Part shown: positions 36,875 through 46,635 of the stretch, piece after piece
Layout: each line of letters opens with the position of its first letter
Position numbering within the stretch: position 1 is the first letter of the stretch
The notes under the pieces: model-generated
The model's input: the letters and a program-made list of their open reading frames with translations, nothing else
What the model was told of the DNA's origin: nothing
The model's database searches: none
Made by a program: the position numbers and the translations under genes
From: Thalassospira povalilytica
GTDB lineage: Bacteria > Pseudomonadota > Alphaproteobacteria > Rhodospirillales > Thalassospiraceae
Direction of reading: 5' to 3'
NCBI RefSeq assembly: GCF_002844235.1
Contig: NZ_PGTS01000001.1
Span: 310,001 to 374,000 of the forward strand
Length of the DNA: 64,000 nt

Positions 36875-36974
36875 AGGCTTGTGTTTGTTCCCCCGGTCAT
36901 GAGACTTCTAGATATGCGTTGCCACCAGCAAATTGCACATTCTCGTTTCCGCTCAGACACAAAGAGGTTCCTGC

Positions 36975-37937
36975 GTGCTCTATCCCGAAATTGCGCCCCG
37001 AATGACGGGGATGTTGTCACGTGACGATGGTCACGAAATCTATTGGGAAGAAGTCGGCAACCCCGACGGTATTCCGGTCATATTTCTTCATGGTGGGCCA
37101 GGGGCCGGGATTTCTCCCAATAGTCGCCGATTTTTCGACCCGGAAAAATACCGCGTCATTTTGTTTGATCAGCGCGGCTCCGGAAAATCAAAGCCGTTCG
37201 GAAGCCTTGAAAACAACACCACCGACCATTTGATCGGTGATATCGAAGCGCTGCGCGAAAGTCGGGGGATTGATAAATGGCTGGTCTTTGGCGGGTCCTG
37301 GGGATCGACATTGGCGCTGGCCTATGGTCAGGCATGCCCGGATCGCGTTCTGGCCTTTGTGTTGCGCGGCATTTTCCTTGGTCGTGAAACCGAAATTGCC
37401 TGGTTCATGGATGGCATGGGCCGATTTTTCCCCGAAGTCGAACGCAGTTTCTTGGCAACCGCCGGATTTGACGCGCATCCCGGCTGGCAGCGAATGCTGG
37501 ATCGCTATGCCGAGATTTTCGCAGGCAAGGATGGCGAAGATGCCGCGATTGATGCCGCACGTGTCTGGTCGGCCTATGAAGCTACCTGCTGTACTCTTTT
37601 GCCGGATCACGGTCTGGTCGAAGATTTCGAAGGCGATGAAATCGCACTCGCGCTGGCAAAGCTTGAACATCACTATTTTGTCCATCGCTGCTTCTTCGAA
37701 CCAGATCAGCTTCTTCGGAATTTGAACCGGATTTCCCATTTGCCTGCTGTCATTGTGCAGGGACGCTATGACGTTGTCTGTCCGCCAATGTCGGCATTTG
37801 AACTGCACAATGCATGGGCCGGATCAAAGATGGTGATTGTTGACGATGCCGGGCATGCAGCCAGTGAACCGGGGATTGTTCGCGAGCTTGTCCGGGCAAC
37901 CGATTCATTCGATGGCAAAAATTTTGCGGGAAATTGA
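36975..37937 (+). CDS. pip: Proline iminopeptidase (S33 family)
   Basis: Removes N-terminal proline from peptides in the cytoplasm. The 320-residue alpha/beta-hydrolase shows the oxyanion motif FLHGGPGAG, the DQRGSGKS strand, the nucleophile in FGGSWGSTLALAY and the C-terminal catalytic His in DDAGHAASEPG. The GTG start at 36975 has AGAGG at 7 bases and gives a family-like N-terminus (LYPEIAPRMTGMLSRDDGHEIYWEE). A TTG 42 bases upstream is in frame but atypical. Confidence 0.93.
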   Translation: MLYPEIAPRMTGMLSRDDGHEIYWEEVGNPDGIPVIFLHGGPGAGISPNSRRFFDPEKYRVILFDQRGSGKSKPFGSLENNTTDHLIGDIEALRESRGIDKWLVFGGSWGSTLALAYGQACPDRVLAFVLRGIFLGRETEIAWFMDGMGRFFPEVERSFLATAGFDAHPGWQRMLDRYAEIFAGKDGEDAAIDAARVWSAYEATCCTLLPDHGLVEDFEGDEIALALAKLEHHYFVHRCFFEPDQLLRNLNRISHLPAVIVQGRYDVVCPPMSAFELHNAWAGSKMVIVDDAGHAASEPGIVRELVRATDSFDGKNFAGN

Positions 37938-40369: not shown

Positions 40370-41536
40370 ATGACCAAACAGAAGATCGTCAAATCCGTCA
40401 GTCATAAAACTCCTGAACCGTCCCAGGCGCCGGAAGACCCGTTGGCATGTTTGCCCAACACCTTTCTGTCGCGCGGGGTCCGGACCCCGTTTACGACCAA
40501 AACCCTGCGCTATGCGCGTGTGGCGGCGGGCAAAGGCGGGCGATCCATGATCATGCTGCCTGGCCTTGCCGGTGGTCTGGGGACTTATGAATTGCCGCTT
40601 GATACCCTGCGCGAGGTTTTTGATCTTTCCGTGCATGACCGCATGCTGTTTGACCGTTTGCTGGAACTAGAAGACATTCGCCCGGGCACCGTTCTTGAAC
40701 AGGCGCGTGCGGTTGCGGTAACCGGCGTTGGCGGGGTCGAACTGGCAAGAACCGCGATTGAGCGCGGCGGGTCGGAAAAATCATCGCGTGAATTGGGGCA
40801 ACTGGCTGTCCTGCATCAGGCACTGCGTCAGCTTGGCGGAAGCGCCGTTCAGGATATGCAGCGCGAAGAATTGCTGACCATGGAAGGTCAGGTCCGCGCG
40901 CGCAAGGCCCTGAACCGCTTTGCATCCGAACATCAAGTCGCCAATGACACCATCATCGACAGCCTTGGCGAATGGAGCACAATGATCGCCCCGGTCGGGC
41001 TTGAGCTTGATGGCTGCAAGGGACCGCTGCGGGTGCTGACCAACGGCCTTGCTAAATTTGCAAATGACGTCGAGGAATGGGCAAATTCCGAACAATCCGA
41101 TTTCCGCTTTATGGCCGGACGTATTTCGAGTGCGACAACCGCGACCTATAAGCATGCCCTGAAATGTGTCGAGGAAGTCGATAGCTGGAACCGTGAACTG
41201 GGCAAGGTTCTGACCGATTGGGAACGGGCAAAGCAGGATATCGGCAAGACCATCGAAAAATTGTGGTGGCTTCTTGATGGCTGGCAGGAAATGATCGACC
41301 TGTGGCATAAAAGACCGGTGGCAGATCGGGTGAAGCAGCGCGAGATCATCGAAGAAGTCGCAAGTTTCGCACCTGTACTCCCGGTCGAGGAAATTACGAC
41401 CGCAGAACAGCAATTCTGGATCGATATTCGTGTCAACCAGATGCTGTGGGCCGGTGAATTGCGCAAGTTGGGCAGTGGGGAAATTGATGCCGATATGGTG
41501 GATCGTCTCGAACGCTTCAGGAGACAGTCTGCATGA
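40370..41536 (+). CDS. Conserved-looking protein of unknown function, first gene of a two-gene operon
   Basis: I do not recognise this 388-residue protein. After a basic, Pro-rich N-terminus (about 35 residues) comes a short region with GRSMIMLPGLAGGLGTYELPLDTL. The remainder is predicted mostly helical, rich in charged residues and Trp (SLGEWSTMIAP, EEVDSWNRELGKVLTDWE, KLWWLLDGWQEMIDLWHKRP). There is no signal peptide, membrane helix or familiar catalytic motif. Codon use and composition look native. Its last four bases (ATGA) overlap the next gene, so the two products are translationally coupled and probably act together. Confidence 0.75.
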   Translation: MTKQKIVKSVSHKTPEPSQAPEDPLACLPNTFLSRGVRTPFTTKTLRYARVAAGKGGRSMIMLPGLAGGLGTYELPLDTLREVFDLSVHDRMLFDRLLELEDIRPGTVLEQARAVAVTGVGGVELARTAIERGGSEKSSRELGQLAVLHQALRQLGGSAVQDMQREELLTMEGQVRARKALNRFASEHQVANDTIIDSLGEWSTMIAPVGLELDGCKGPLRVLTNGLAKFANDVEEWANSEQSDFRFMAGRISSATTATYKHALKCVEEVDSWNRELGKVLTDWERAKQDIGKTIEKLWWLLDGWQEMIDLWHKRPVADRVKQREIIEEVASFAPVLPVEEITTAEQQFWIDIRVNQMLWAGELRKLGSGEIDADMVDRLERFRRQSA

Positions 41537-42981
41537 AGATTGAAGAGGCAGGTAATCTTGGTGTTTCGCAACTCGGGCAACTGTTTGAATCCTTAAGCGG
41601 TTCTGAAATCGCACGATTTACCCGTGCGATTGAAAGCGATCGCGCAGACCCCAAATTGCCGCTCCCCCATGAAACCATTTTGCAAATCCTGCGTCCGCGT
41701 CTTGCATCGCTCAAACCGGAACGCTATCCGACCCCAATGCGTCAATTCTGCGATCCGTTCGAAGATCTTCTGACGTCGGGCGAGGCCAGTGAAAAAAGCA
41801 TCCGCATCAGTCGTTCATCCCTGATTCCGATCTGGCGGGTGGTCACCGGTGCGAATGACCCGGAATTTGCCGAGGCCATGAAGGAAATTGATGCGGCGGC
41901 GGGCAAGCGCGATACAACAAGCCTTGCCGCAGCCGAAAGCAAGCTGTGGAAGGCAGGGGCACGGATCATCGAAGATCAGATCGCCCGGTCCCACGGCGGG
42001 ATAAAGGAAGAACGCGCCCTTGCAACAAGCCTTGGATCGCGTGTCCATCTGAAGGCCTTTGCCGAAGTCGGCCGTATTCTGAATGTGGGCGAAGAAATCG
42101 CCCAGGTGCGTGCACGTTTTCCGTCGGCGCCGATCAGGGGTCTTGATGCCAATGACGTTACCTGGCTGCGTGACCGGTTTGTGGAAATTTCAAAAAACAA
42201 ACCCGGGTTCGAGCCGATGTTCCTGTTGGCCGTACTTGCCCGGTTGCTGCGTCCAAGTGAACTGTTCAAACTGATCCGTGTTTTGTCGACCAAGGCCGAT
42301 GACAGCACGATTGAAAAGACCAACCTGGCCGAGACCGGCGACCTGATCATTGATTTGCTGGCAGAAACCGTGACCGAGATCGAACAGGGTGTTGTCACCG
42401 GCAAGGATGAGGCACATATCCTGTCGCTGGCGCGCTGGTACGCATCCGAATTCACCCGCATCACCCGCGAATTCAAAATTCGCAAGGATGGCCGTTGGGG
42501 TGAAAAGCTTCTGGAAACGCGCCGTCGGGTGTCGCGCGCTCTGGCCGATACGATGTTTGGTGCAACCCCGGAACGCGTGATTGACGCACTGCCCAAAATG
42601 GAAGTCCGGCAGGGGCCCGGTTCCGGCGTGAAGGGCTTGGCGCGACCGCTGTTTGCGCAGGATTTTGACGATGAAAAAGTCTTGGCCGCGGAAAAGTCGG
42701 CCGAAGCAATCGCGGAAACTGCCCGGATTTCGGATGTGCTGGCCGCACAAAGTTCGGCTGCCAAGGCAGTGGTTGAGCTTAAGAAAAAGCTCAATCAGAT
42801 CGGGCGTGCCGGTGTTGACGGCATGGGCCGTTTGACGCCCGAAGAAATCCCCAATGCACAACGCAATCTGATGGCAACAGTGCGGTTGCTTGAAATCGTT
42901 GATGGCCCCGAAGACGCAGATGTTTTGCGCCGCCGCGGCATGTCTGCCATTCGCGCTCTTACCAGCCAAAAGGCAAGCTGA
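41533..42981 (+). CDS. Protein of unknown function, second gene of a two-gene operon
   Basis: I do not recognise this 482-residue protein. It begins MKIEEAGNLGVSQLGQLFESLSGSEIARFTRAI and continues RYPTPMRQFCDPFEDLL. It is largely helical, with long charged stretches (AESKLWKAGARIIEDQIARSHGGIKEERALATSLGSRVH; EEIAQVRARFP; LIRVLSTKADDS) and an Ala-rich segment with a possible coiled coil near residues 370-425. It has no signal peptide or membrane segment. It starts inside the stop region of the upstream gene, and 27 bases separate its stop from the stop of the LysR gene. Confidence 0.75.
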   Translation: MKIEEAGNLGVSQLGQLFESLSGSEIARFTRAIESDRADPKLPLPHETILQILRPRLASLKPERYPTPMRQFCDPFEDLLTSGEASEKSIRISRSSLIPIWRVVTGANDPEFAEAMKEIDAAAGKRDTTSLAAAESKLWKAGARIIEDQIARSHGGIKEERALATSLGSRVHLKAFAEVGRILNVGEEIAQVRARFPSAPIRGLDANDVTWLRDRFVEISKNKPGFEPMFLLAVLARLLRPSELFKLIRVLSTKADDSTIEKTNLAETGDLIIDLLAETVTEIEQGVVTGKDEAHILSLARWYASEFTRITREFKIRKDGRWGEKLLETRRRVSRALADTMFGATPERVIDALPKMEVRQGPGSGVKGLARPLFAQDFDDEKVLAAEKSAEAIAETARISDVLAAQSSAAKAVVELKKKLNQIGRAGVDGMGRLTPEEIPNAQRNLMATVRLLEIVDGPEDADVLRRRGMSAIRALTSQKAS

Positions 42982-44134: not shown

Positions 44135-45325
44135 ATGGCAAGCCGCGCACCGTTTCATTGGGAAGATCCGCTCCTGCTTGAAGAGCAGTTGAGCGAAGAG
44201 GAACGCATGATCCGCGATGCGGCCCGTGCATATTGTCAGGAAAACCTGCAAACCCGCGTTCTCGAAGCAAACCGTCATGAAATTTTCCATCGTGAAATCA
44301 TGACCGAGATGGGTGAACTTGGCCTGCTTGGCCCGACCATCCCCGAGGAATACGGCGGACCGGGTGTGAACCACGTGGCCTATGGTCTGGTTGCACGCGA
44401 AGTCGAACGCGTTGATTCCGGCTATCGTTCGGCAATGTCGGTTCAGAGCTCGCTGGTGATGCATCCGATCTTTGCTTATGGCAGCGAAGAACAGCGCAAG
44501 AAATATCTGCCGAAACTGGCAACCGGTGAATTCGTCGGCTGCTTTGGCCTGACCGAGCCGGACCATGGCTCCGATCCGGGCGGCATGAAAACCCGTGCCC
44601 GCAAGACCGAGGGTGGCTTCACCCTGACCGGGTCGAAAATGTGGATCACCAACAGCCCGATCGCCGACGTCTTTGTCGTCTGGGCCAAGGATGACGAAGG
44701 CGTCATTCGCGGCTTTATCCTTGAAAAGGACATGAACGGACTGTCCGCACCGAAAATCGAAGGCAAGTTTTCGCTGCGTGCGTCGATCACCGGCGAAATC
44801 GTCATGGACAATGTCTTCGTGCCCGAAGAAAACATGCTGCCGAATGCCAAGGGCCTTGGCGGTCCGTTCGGTTGCCTGAACAAGGCCCGTTACGGCATCG
44901 CGTGGGGCGCAATGGGTGCGGCTGAATTCTGCTGGCATGCGGCACGTCAATATACCCTTGATCGCAAACAGTTCGGTCGTCCGATTGCCGCCAATCAGCT
45001 GATCCAGCTGAAACTGGCAAACATGCAGACCGAAATCACCCTTGGTCTTCAGGGTGCGCTTCAGCTGGGCCGTCTGCTTGATGCAGGCAAAGGCGCACCG
45101 GAAGCGATTTCGCTGATGAAGCGTAACAACTGCGGTAAGGCACTCGACATTGCCCGTGTTGCCCGTGACATGCATGGCGGTAACGGTATTGCGGATGAAT
45201 TCCATGTCATCCGTCATTCGATGAACCTTGAAGCGGTCAATACCTACGAAGGTACCCACGATGTTCATGCCCTGATCCTGGGCCGTGCACAGACCGGCAT
45301 TCAGGCCTTCTCCGCCGAAGGCTGA
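44135..45325 (+). CDS. gcdH: Glutaryl-CoA dehydrogenase
   Basis: FAD enzyme that oxidatively decarboxylates glutaryl-CoA to crotonyl-CoA in lysine, tryptophan and glutarate breakdown. The 396-residue acyl-CoA-dehydrogenase-family protein shows [37 protein letters not shown] and the catalytic-base region [17 protein letters not shown] with the active-site Glu. Arg in [15 protein letters not shown] and the surrounding sequence match the glutaryl-specific branch. AAAAGGATCAGGC precedes ATG. The CoA-transferase gene follows after 86 bases. Confidence 0.96.
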
Positions 45326-45411
45326 TCAAGTTTTTACCGGACGGCAGCAGCAATGTTGCCGCCCGTTTTGATTCTGCGACATGTTTCCAAATCGACTTTC
45401 GGGATATTCAA

Positions 45412-46635
45412 ATGACTGGCGCACTTTCCGGGCTTCGTGTTCTTGATCTTTCGCGTGTGTTGGCCGGACCATGGGCCAGCCAGACCCTGGCCGATATGGG
45501 GGCAGAGGTCATCAAGATCGAACGTCCCGGTGCCGGTGATGATACGCGCGGCTGGGGCCCGCCCTTTGCCAAGGATGCCAATGGCAATGACACCACCGAG
45601 GCCGCCTATTATCTGACGGCCAACCGTGGCAAAAAGTCGCTGACGATTGACATCACCAAACCCGAAGGTCAGGAAATAGTTCGCAATATCGCGGCCCAAA
45701 GCGATGTGGTTCTGGAAAACTTCAAGGTCGGTGGTCTTGCCAAATACGGTCTTGATTACGCGACCCTGTCGGCCCTCAATCCCAAGCTTGTTTATTGTTC
45801 GATCACCGGCTTTGGTCAGGACGGCCCCTATAAGGATCGCCCGGGGTATGATTTCATGATCCAGGGCATGGGCGGCCTGATGAGCATCACCGGTGCGCCC
45901 GATAGCGCCCCGGGTGGCCAACCGATGAAGGTCGGTGTGGCGGTTGCCGATATCTTTACCGGGCTTTATGCGACGATCGGTATCTTGGCGGCACTTCGTC
46001 ATCGCGATGCAACTGGCGAAGGCCAGTATATTGATCTTGCCCTGCTTGATGTGCAGGCCGCTGTTCTTGCCAATCAGGCGATGAATTACCTGACAACCGG
46101 CAATGCGCCGGGCCGTCTGGGTAATGCGCATCCCAATATCGTGCCATATGAAGCCTTCCCGAGTGCCGATGGCTATCTGATCCTGGCTGTCGGCAATGAC
46201 AGCCAGTTCAAAAGTTTCTGTGCGGTGGCGGGGCTGGACGATTTACCGGCTGATGAACGCTATGCCACCAACCGCAATCGTGTTGCCAACCGCGATACGC
46301 TGGTGCCATTAATCCGTCAGGCCATGGTTTTGAAAACCACCGATGAATGGATCGCCGCCCTTGAAAAGGCCAATGTGCCGTGCGGGCCGATCAATACCCT
46401 TGATCGTGTTTTTGACAATCCGCAGGTCAAACATCGTGGTCTGGTCAAACATCTTGATCACCCGACGGCTGGCACCGTGCCGACGGTTGGCAATCCGATC
46501 AGGTTTTCCAAAACGCCGATTACGGATGAAAAAGCCCCGCCGATGCTGGGACAGCATAGCGACGAAATCCTGCGCAAGGTCGCCGACCTGAGTGACGATC
46601 AAATTGCCAAACTGCGCGACGCAGGAATTGTCTGA
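45412..46635 (+). CDS. Class III CoA-transferase, probable succinyl-CoA:glutarate CoA-transferase
   Basis: CaiB/BaiF-family enzyme of 407 residues that moves CoA between dicarboxylic acids. The family pattern GLRVLDLSRVLAGPWASQTLADMGAEVIKIERPGAGDDTRGWGPP opens the protein. GYDFMIQGMGGLMSITG and VPCGPINTLDRVFDNPQVKHRGL follow. Its place after gcdH suggests that it activates glutarate to glutaryl-CoA using succinyl-CoA, as the mammalian SUGCT homologue does. The specific substrate is an inference from the neighbour. Confidence 0.9.
   Translation: MTGALSGLRVLDLSRVLAGPWASQTLADMGAEVIKIERPGAGDDTRGWGPPFAKDANGNDTTEAAYYLTANRGKKSLTIDITKPEGQEIVRNIAAQSDVVLENFKVGGLAKYGLDYATLSALNPKLVYCSITGFGQDGPYKDRPGYDFMIQGMGGLMSITGAPDSAPGGQPMKVGVAVADIFTGLYATIGILAALRHRDATGEGQYIDLALLDVQAAVLANQAMNYLTTGNAPGRLGNAHPNIVPYEAFPSADGYLILAVGNDSQFKSFCAVAGLDDLPADERYATNRNRVANRDTLVPLIRQAMVLKTTDEWIAALEKANVPCGPINTLDRVFDNPQVKHRGLVKHLDHPTAGTVPTVGNPIRFSKTPITDEKAPPMLGQHSDEILRKVADLSDDQIAKLRDAGIV

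Follow-up and report, generated by a model that had tools for sequence, protein, structure and literature searches.

An overlapping gene pair of Thalassospira povalilytica belongs to two conserved alphaproteobacterial protein families without described relatives in the libraries tested

Results and Discussion

Gene Layout and Properties of the Pair

The window analyzed here, the whole stretch of 64,000 nucleotides from the 4.4 Mb genome of T. povalilytica, carries two consecutive genes, ORF1 and ORF2, whose features are listed in Table 1. An earlier reading, made from the sequence only, had described frames of 388 and 482 residues that share an ATGA, and both were found with these lengths. An AGGAG read from the sequence lies 9 nt upstream of the ORF2 ATG, so ORF2 also appears to have a ribosome-binding site of its own.

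Table 1. Features of the ORF1-ORF2 locus (positions in the window).
Feature	Position	Strand	Description
ORF1, 388 aa	40370..41536	+	Sequence on which family 1 is founded; a small N-terminal module that is conserved, then helical arms
ORF1 residues 22-125	40433..40744	+	Conserved N-terminal module holding three beta strands of the model; conserved R35 G36, F41 T42 T43, R50, Y73, D90, P105, G119, G122
ORF1 residues 303-312	41276..41305	+	Conserved D-G-W...W in the helical part
AGGAG	41519..41523	+	Likely ribosome-binding site of ORF2, within the end of ORF1
ATGA	41533..41536	+	Overlap of ORF1 stop and ORF2 start; about 24 of the 39 distant pairs have a similar junction
ORF2, 482 aa	41533..42981	+	Family 2; predicted all-helical except for short bridges
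ORF2 residues 40-106	41650..41850	+	Conserved N-terminal module, the segment that picks up distant relatives; conserved R54 P55, R70, P75, E77, R94, W101

The dN/dS values in comparisons with close relatives were 0.043-0.084 for ORF1 (three comparisons) and 0.045-0.059 for ORF2 (two comparisons). Given these low values and homologues without an internal stop in every one of the 29 congeneric genomes, ORF1 and ORF2 are real genes under strong purifying selection. The proteins had been described as charged, rich in Trp and Arg, devoid of membrane helices and similar in composition to their neighbors. Charged residues indeed make up 28% of ORF1 and 30% of ORF2, and the GC and GC3 of both genes resemble those of the neighboring genes. 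The best 19-residue Kyte-Doolittle means were 1.00 (ORF1) and 1.35 (ORF2), which by this crude test agrees with the absence of membrane helices, and both products look cytoplasmic. The richness in Arg applies to both proteins (8.2% and 9.3%, against 4.9-6.9% in seven neighbors), while that in Trp holds for ORF1 (2.6%) but not for ORF2 (1.0%), the neighbors having 0-2.1%.

Family, Literature, and Structure Searches

Neither window protein matched a family in Pfam or NCBIfam up to an E-value of 5, in PHROGs, or in the 2023 library of PADLOC. Ten distant members gave chance-level rows only against Pfam and NCBIfam, none of them close to the cut-off. When 50 ORF1 and 49 ORF2 members were compared with Pfam, no family was matched by more than one member, and the best E-values across these wide alignments were 0.0043 and 0.0018, respectively. 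(The ORF1 alignment omits L153, L177, L186, L206, and L211; the ORF2 alignment omits L135, L146, L153, L177, L181, L193, L198, L199, L211, and one of the two L204 copies.) Against sequence profiles of the PDB, the best rows for the wide alignments were designed helical proteins at E-values of 0.0021 (ORF1) and 0.035 (ORF2), and earlier runs had likewise returned designed helical proteins or nothing. A profile-profile comparison of ORF1 with ORF2 by hhalign gave a probability of 0.5% and an E-value of 0.13; by this sequence comparison the two are unrelated to each other. In literature listings on Thalassospira or Azospirillum nothing was found on this gene pair, and no paper was found for 'PFEDLL' or on transposon fitness of hypothetical genes in Thalassospira. 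The Rhodospirillales tables of PMC2241609 use locus tags that could not be related to ORF1 or ORF2.

The AlphaFold2 model of ORF1 (pLDDT 86.3, pTM 0.85) has a small beta part near its start with helices after it, and that of ORF2 (pLDDT 83.7, pTM 0.73) is helical, in agreement with the helical nature claimed from sequence; the ORF2 model was built from genus members only, and its conserved first 60 residues are weak (block means 49-64). In searches of solved structures, the best matches of ORF2 had a Z-score of 7.8 and a Foldseek E-value of 1.9e-3, both to designed proteins, and those of ORF1 a Z-score of 8.1, to a designed protein, and a Foldseek E-value of 0.12. The ORF1 model reached at best an E-value of 0.55 in a library of viral structures. 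Designed helical-repeat proteins, 14-3-3 proteins, and importin-like stacks share general helical stacking with part of the models, but at background Z-scores of at most 8.1 and without sequence relation. As judged from the models, neither fold has a convincing solved relative and the matches are the background expected of helical proteins, although they barely covered the N-terminal parts of ORF1 and ORF2. The lack of a family assignment noticed at the outset has thus held for Pfam, NCBIfam, PHROGs, PADLOC, and PDB sequences and folds: no strong profile match to a known family was found for either protein.

Two alternatives are touched by these searches. The first Foldseek row for ORF1 was XaxA (E-value 0.12, probability 0.12), which brings to mind the XaxAB-like pore-forming toxins, alpha-helical and made of two components. 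Designed helical bundles score equally, however; this match falls within the helical-bundle background, and the hydrophobicity means of 1.00 and 1.35, a crude measure, leave no membrane-inserting stretch; we regard such a toxin as highly improbable. The invariant charged and aromatic residues R50, D90, W305, and W312 of ORF1 and R54, R70, E77, and R94 of ORF2 would fit an enzyme, alone or in an enzyme complex, whose fold went unrecognized here. On the other hand, no known catalytic motif was recognized in either protein, as the sequence-only reading had also noted, there is no family match, and the mostly helical models gave no enzyme-like match above background, with their N-terminal parts barely covered. 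An enzyme therefore seems rather unlikely.

Conservation within Thalassospira

Among 60 relatives searched, ORF1 and ORF2 were each matched in all 29 Thalassospira genomes and in none of the 31 others. Each has a single match in its own genome; the congeneric homologues lack internal stops, and ORF2 appears as two matches in one draft (G022). The flanks are alike across 22 named Thalassospira loci, with genes that, from their sequences and the close relatives compared, we take to encode a LysR regulator (21/22), an acyl-CoA dehydrogenase (20/22), a CoA-transferase (20/22), and a proline-iminopeptidase-like hydrolase (19/22). In view of the constant flanks and the presence in 29 of 29 genomes, the pair is core and vertically inherited in Thalassospira. 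The hydrolase gene (window 36933-37937) also lies near the pair in the distant loci L133, L144, and L150 with 52-53% identity, which supports vertical inheritance. Window positions 44135-46635 hold what is presumably a glutaryl-CoA-dehydrogenase-like gene together with a CaiB-type CoA-transferase gene. Both occur about 10 kb or less from the pair in Thalassospira, L152, and L153, and the CoA-transferase gene lies within about 10 kb of it also in L154 and L183; this proximity is old synteny shared across orders.

The fixed chromosomal synteny in the genus speaks against the pair being left over from a phage, a gene transfer agent, or a plasmid, as does the absence of matches in 50,697 phage records, PHROGs, or IMG/VR relatives. 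Some Azospirillum copies are indeed carried by large replicons that are recorded as plasmids, but a mobile origin is refuted as far as the phage, PHROGs, and IMG/VR collections reach, and we give it next to no weight.

Distribution in Other Alphaproteobacteria

Searches within the order had suggested a genus-specific pair: full-length queries matched 29 of 297 genomes for each protein, and a 74-residue piece of ORF2 matched 9 of 120, all of them Thalassospira. This was overturned when the short ORF2 piece was searched in the class. There, samples of 385 genomes each were searched with the 74-residue piece and, for ORF1, with a composed query of 70 residues, at thresholds of E ≤ 1e-3 for ORF2 (without G449) and E ≤ 1e-8 for ORF1 (leaving out G417 at 2.3e-6 and weaker rows). 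ORF2 was found in 54 and ORF1 in 33 class genomes, and by sequence similarity both families are thus shown to spread through other Alphaproteobacteria. Named members outside Thalassospira belong to Azospirillum and Indioceanicola, and in the family of G640 ORF1 is present in 64 of 69 genomes, some with five copies. A sample of 150 genomes of the phylum, which says little on other classes, returned two: the own genome and a discounted 37-residue match in G449.

Hypothetical proteins of Azospirillum (e.g., A. oryzae HUE56_RS01320 and HUE56_RS01325) belong to the same two families and are encoded adjacently in the same order, but are only about 18-24% identical to the window proteins. Unlike in the window, a third small gene on the same strand follows the pair in the Azospirillum loci L152, L153, L154, and L183. 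It encodes 123-137 aa (GYTGWELP...HHVTL), and its cluster was found in only these four loci.

Strict co-occurrence, which the sequence-only reading had named as support for a system, was found in one direction only. All 33 genomes with ORF1 also carry ORF2 (30 by threshold; G388, G527, and G627 by profile only, the ORF2 of G627 being split and weak), whereas 24 of the 54 ORF2-bearing genomes lack ORF1 at the thresholds used.

Organization of Distant Loci

We compared 63 distant loci, 20 picked by ORF2, 3 from Azospirillum, and 40 picked by ORF1. ORF1 is followed by ORF2 in 39 of the 52 ORF1 genes (those split in L177, L186, and L206 being counted once each). The nearest possible ORF2 start was placed by the script at -3 in 22 of the 39 junctions, and an ATGA or GTGA was seen by eye in two more; the remaining ones include one TGATG, with the others at most 24 nt apart except in L211. 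In L194, a single case from a draft genome, the two are naturally fused into a protein of 865 aa, with ORF1 model positions 4-347 at residues 42-384 and ORF2 model positions 6-454 at residues 416-849. In L181 and L193 (2/52) ORF2 comes before ORF1, extra ORF1 copies flank the same ORF2 in L181 and L211 (2/52), and two pairs stand in tandem in L204. For the other eight of the 52 ORF1 genes the locus contains no ORF2, one of these loci (L213) being cut off by the end of its contig, so homologues are sometimes found apart: 7/52 ORF1 genes lack an adjoining ORF2. For seven of the eight ORF1-only loci, the genome holds a complete pair elsewhere (G472, G355, G647, G570, G400, G402, and G672), and G402 holds two ORF1-only loci.

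In L181 (G640), one ORF1 is divergent from an ORF2-ORF1 unit, and ORF1 genes with similar divergent spacing occur in the congeneric genomes G810, G821, G826, and G831. ORF1 extends over two frames next to an intact ORF2 in L177, L186, and L206; one of these split cases lies in the single-contig genome G640 and may therefore be a real broken gene.

Neighboring Genes

The neighbors in the 63 loci were clustered by BLAST, and Pfam scans covered 39 of 53 neighbors of the solo ORF2 loci and 99 of 188 of the ORF1-bearing loci; genes were called there by a simple script, and some calls are wrong. Leaving aside ORF1 and ORF2, regulators and kinases made up the largest cluster, with 15 loci; those that followed, of common metabolic genes and LysR regulators, reached at most 7 loci. 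The pair has no recurrent neighbor family, the commonest Pfam families being present in only 3 of the 99 scanned neighbors, and the search for a constant third gene was thus negative by both methods. Pentapeptide-repeat genes were seen in 2 of the 99 (at L149 and possibly L188); in L149 a gene of this kind, of 415 aa, follows the pair, judging from its position in the sequence.

Solo ORF2 genes have a different surrounding. Of 14 solo loci, 8 (L134, L135, L136, L139, L140, L143, L145, and L148; families f34, f35, and f121) have a histidine kinase gene directly preceding ORF2 in the same orientation, at a distance of about 76 to 720 nt, and a response regulator gene precedes the kinase in all of these except L148. 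In L134, L135, and L136, a small frame on the opposite strand was called between kinase and ORF2. Pfam HATPase_c was found in 8 of the 39 scanned neighbors of solo loci. This link was not seen beside pairs, where response regulators made up 2 of the 99 neighbors and histidine kinases were outside the 25 families listed, nor does the pair in the window show any linkage to a kinase or regulator. In L197 and L212, where ORF1 stands without ORF2, a response-regulator gene is nearby, and in L212 a kinase gene directly precedes in the same orientation, an arrangement like that of the solo ORF2 loci.

Two coupled genes with several paralogous copies in some genomes, and in tandem in L204, could recall an anti-phage defense module or a toxin-antitoxin pair. 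The distribution is not patchy, however, but that of a genus core at a fixed place and of a gene that 64 of the 69 genomes from another family carry. The GC is host-like, PADLOC (2023 library) gave no match, the listed neighbor families of ORF1 loci include no defense genes, and the AbiEii-named AAA_21 matches accompany ABC transporters in equal counts. We consider this explanation very unlikely.

Coevolution and the Solo ORF2 Clade

The distances in the ORF1 and ORF2 trees correlated with r = 0.73 over 36 pairs (32 loci and 4 Thalassospira), a value that includes a contribution of shared species history; the best of 2000 label shuffles gave 0.31. When partners were swapped within three multi-pair genomes, the true pairing ranked second of 96, one swapped pairing being slightly above it (0.7263 vs. 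0.7255).

The 12 solo ORF2s on the tree form one clade with a support of 1.0 beside the Thalassospira-type pairs; the tree was rooted at midpoint, and the choice of root decides whether the solo state came first or arose later. These are full-length members of the family that, unlike the window pair, come from genomes in which no ORF1 passed the thresholds and show residues of their own, among them W103, D175, G309, and Y423. Conversely, W139, E387, R451, and E454 of ORF2 are kept in 37 paired members and rare in the 12 solo ones, and are candidates for residues contacting ORF1. The clean contrast between the paired and the solo clade offers a direct handle on the partner interface. Conservation peaks in the N-terminal modules, being equal or higher in only 13 of 370 (ORF1) and 4 of 461 (ORF2) shifted windows, and the helical parts behind them are more variable in both proteins.

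A Probable Two-Protein Complex

On the basis of the gene overlap, the one fusion, the one-way dependence, and the mirrored trees, we consider that the products of ORF1 and ORF2 probably form one complex, with a probability of roughly three in four. The suggestion that the coupled products form a complex, first made from the overlap in the window, is thereby strengthened by the distant overlaps, the fusion, and the trees. Counting against it, adjacency is not obligatory, as ORF2 occurs alone in 24 genomes and seven ORF1 loci lack an adjoining ORF2. The two could instead be independent cytoplasmic proteins of one pathway, coupled for equal dosage and not touching each other. The ORF2 clade without ORF1, the seven ORF1 genes standing apart, and the AGGAG of ORF2 would all suit such an arrangement, but it leaves the overlap kept in distant pairs, the natural fusion, the residues specific to paired ORF2, and the restriction of ORF1 to genomes with ORF2 unaccounted for. 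We hold it to be unlikely, if somewhat less so than an enzyme.

In the complex that we favor, ORF1 and ORF2 would bind each other while being made. Since ORF2 is able to occur by itself in one clade, it would be the core subunit; ORF1, which is found only in ORF2-bearing genomes, would be its dependent partner. The conserved N-terminal modules of both proteins may make the common contact, while the variable helical arms may give each paralogous pair its own target. With no catalytic motif, conserved N-terminal modules, and variable helical parts, the complex is rather more likely a cytoplasmic adaptor or scaffold than a catalyst. As to the process, a role as a regulatory or signaling adaptor is our best guess, a tentative one with a probability well below even, prompted by the solo ORF2 gene often following a histidine kinase gene. 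More speculatively still, the pair might found a new class of alphaproteobacterial regulators that are modular and built from two proteins. ORF2 would then act as a helical adaptor or receiver, which in one clade is connected to a two-component system. ORF1 would be the subunit for recognition, and its duplication together with its own ORF2 would yield several insulated units per cell.

The pair had been proposed as the best candidate in the window for an undescribed system. The undescribed pair stands, as two conserved protein families shown to be without described relatives in the libraries tested; the wider notion of a system has fared less well, as neither strict co-occurrence nor a recurrent third gene was found. 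No known kind was matched in the tests run, and the newness lies in the families and folds, not in a demonstrated mechanism. A pair that is fixed in one genus, present in 64 of 69 genomes and in multiple copies in another family, and outside the tested libraries represents a conserved part of the cell biology of Alphaproteobacteria that has apparently gone unnamed.
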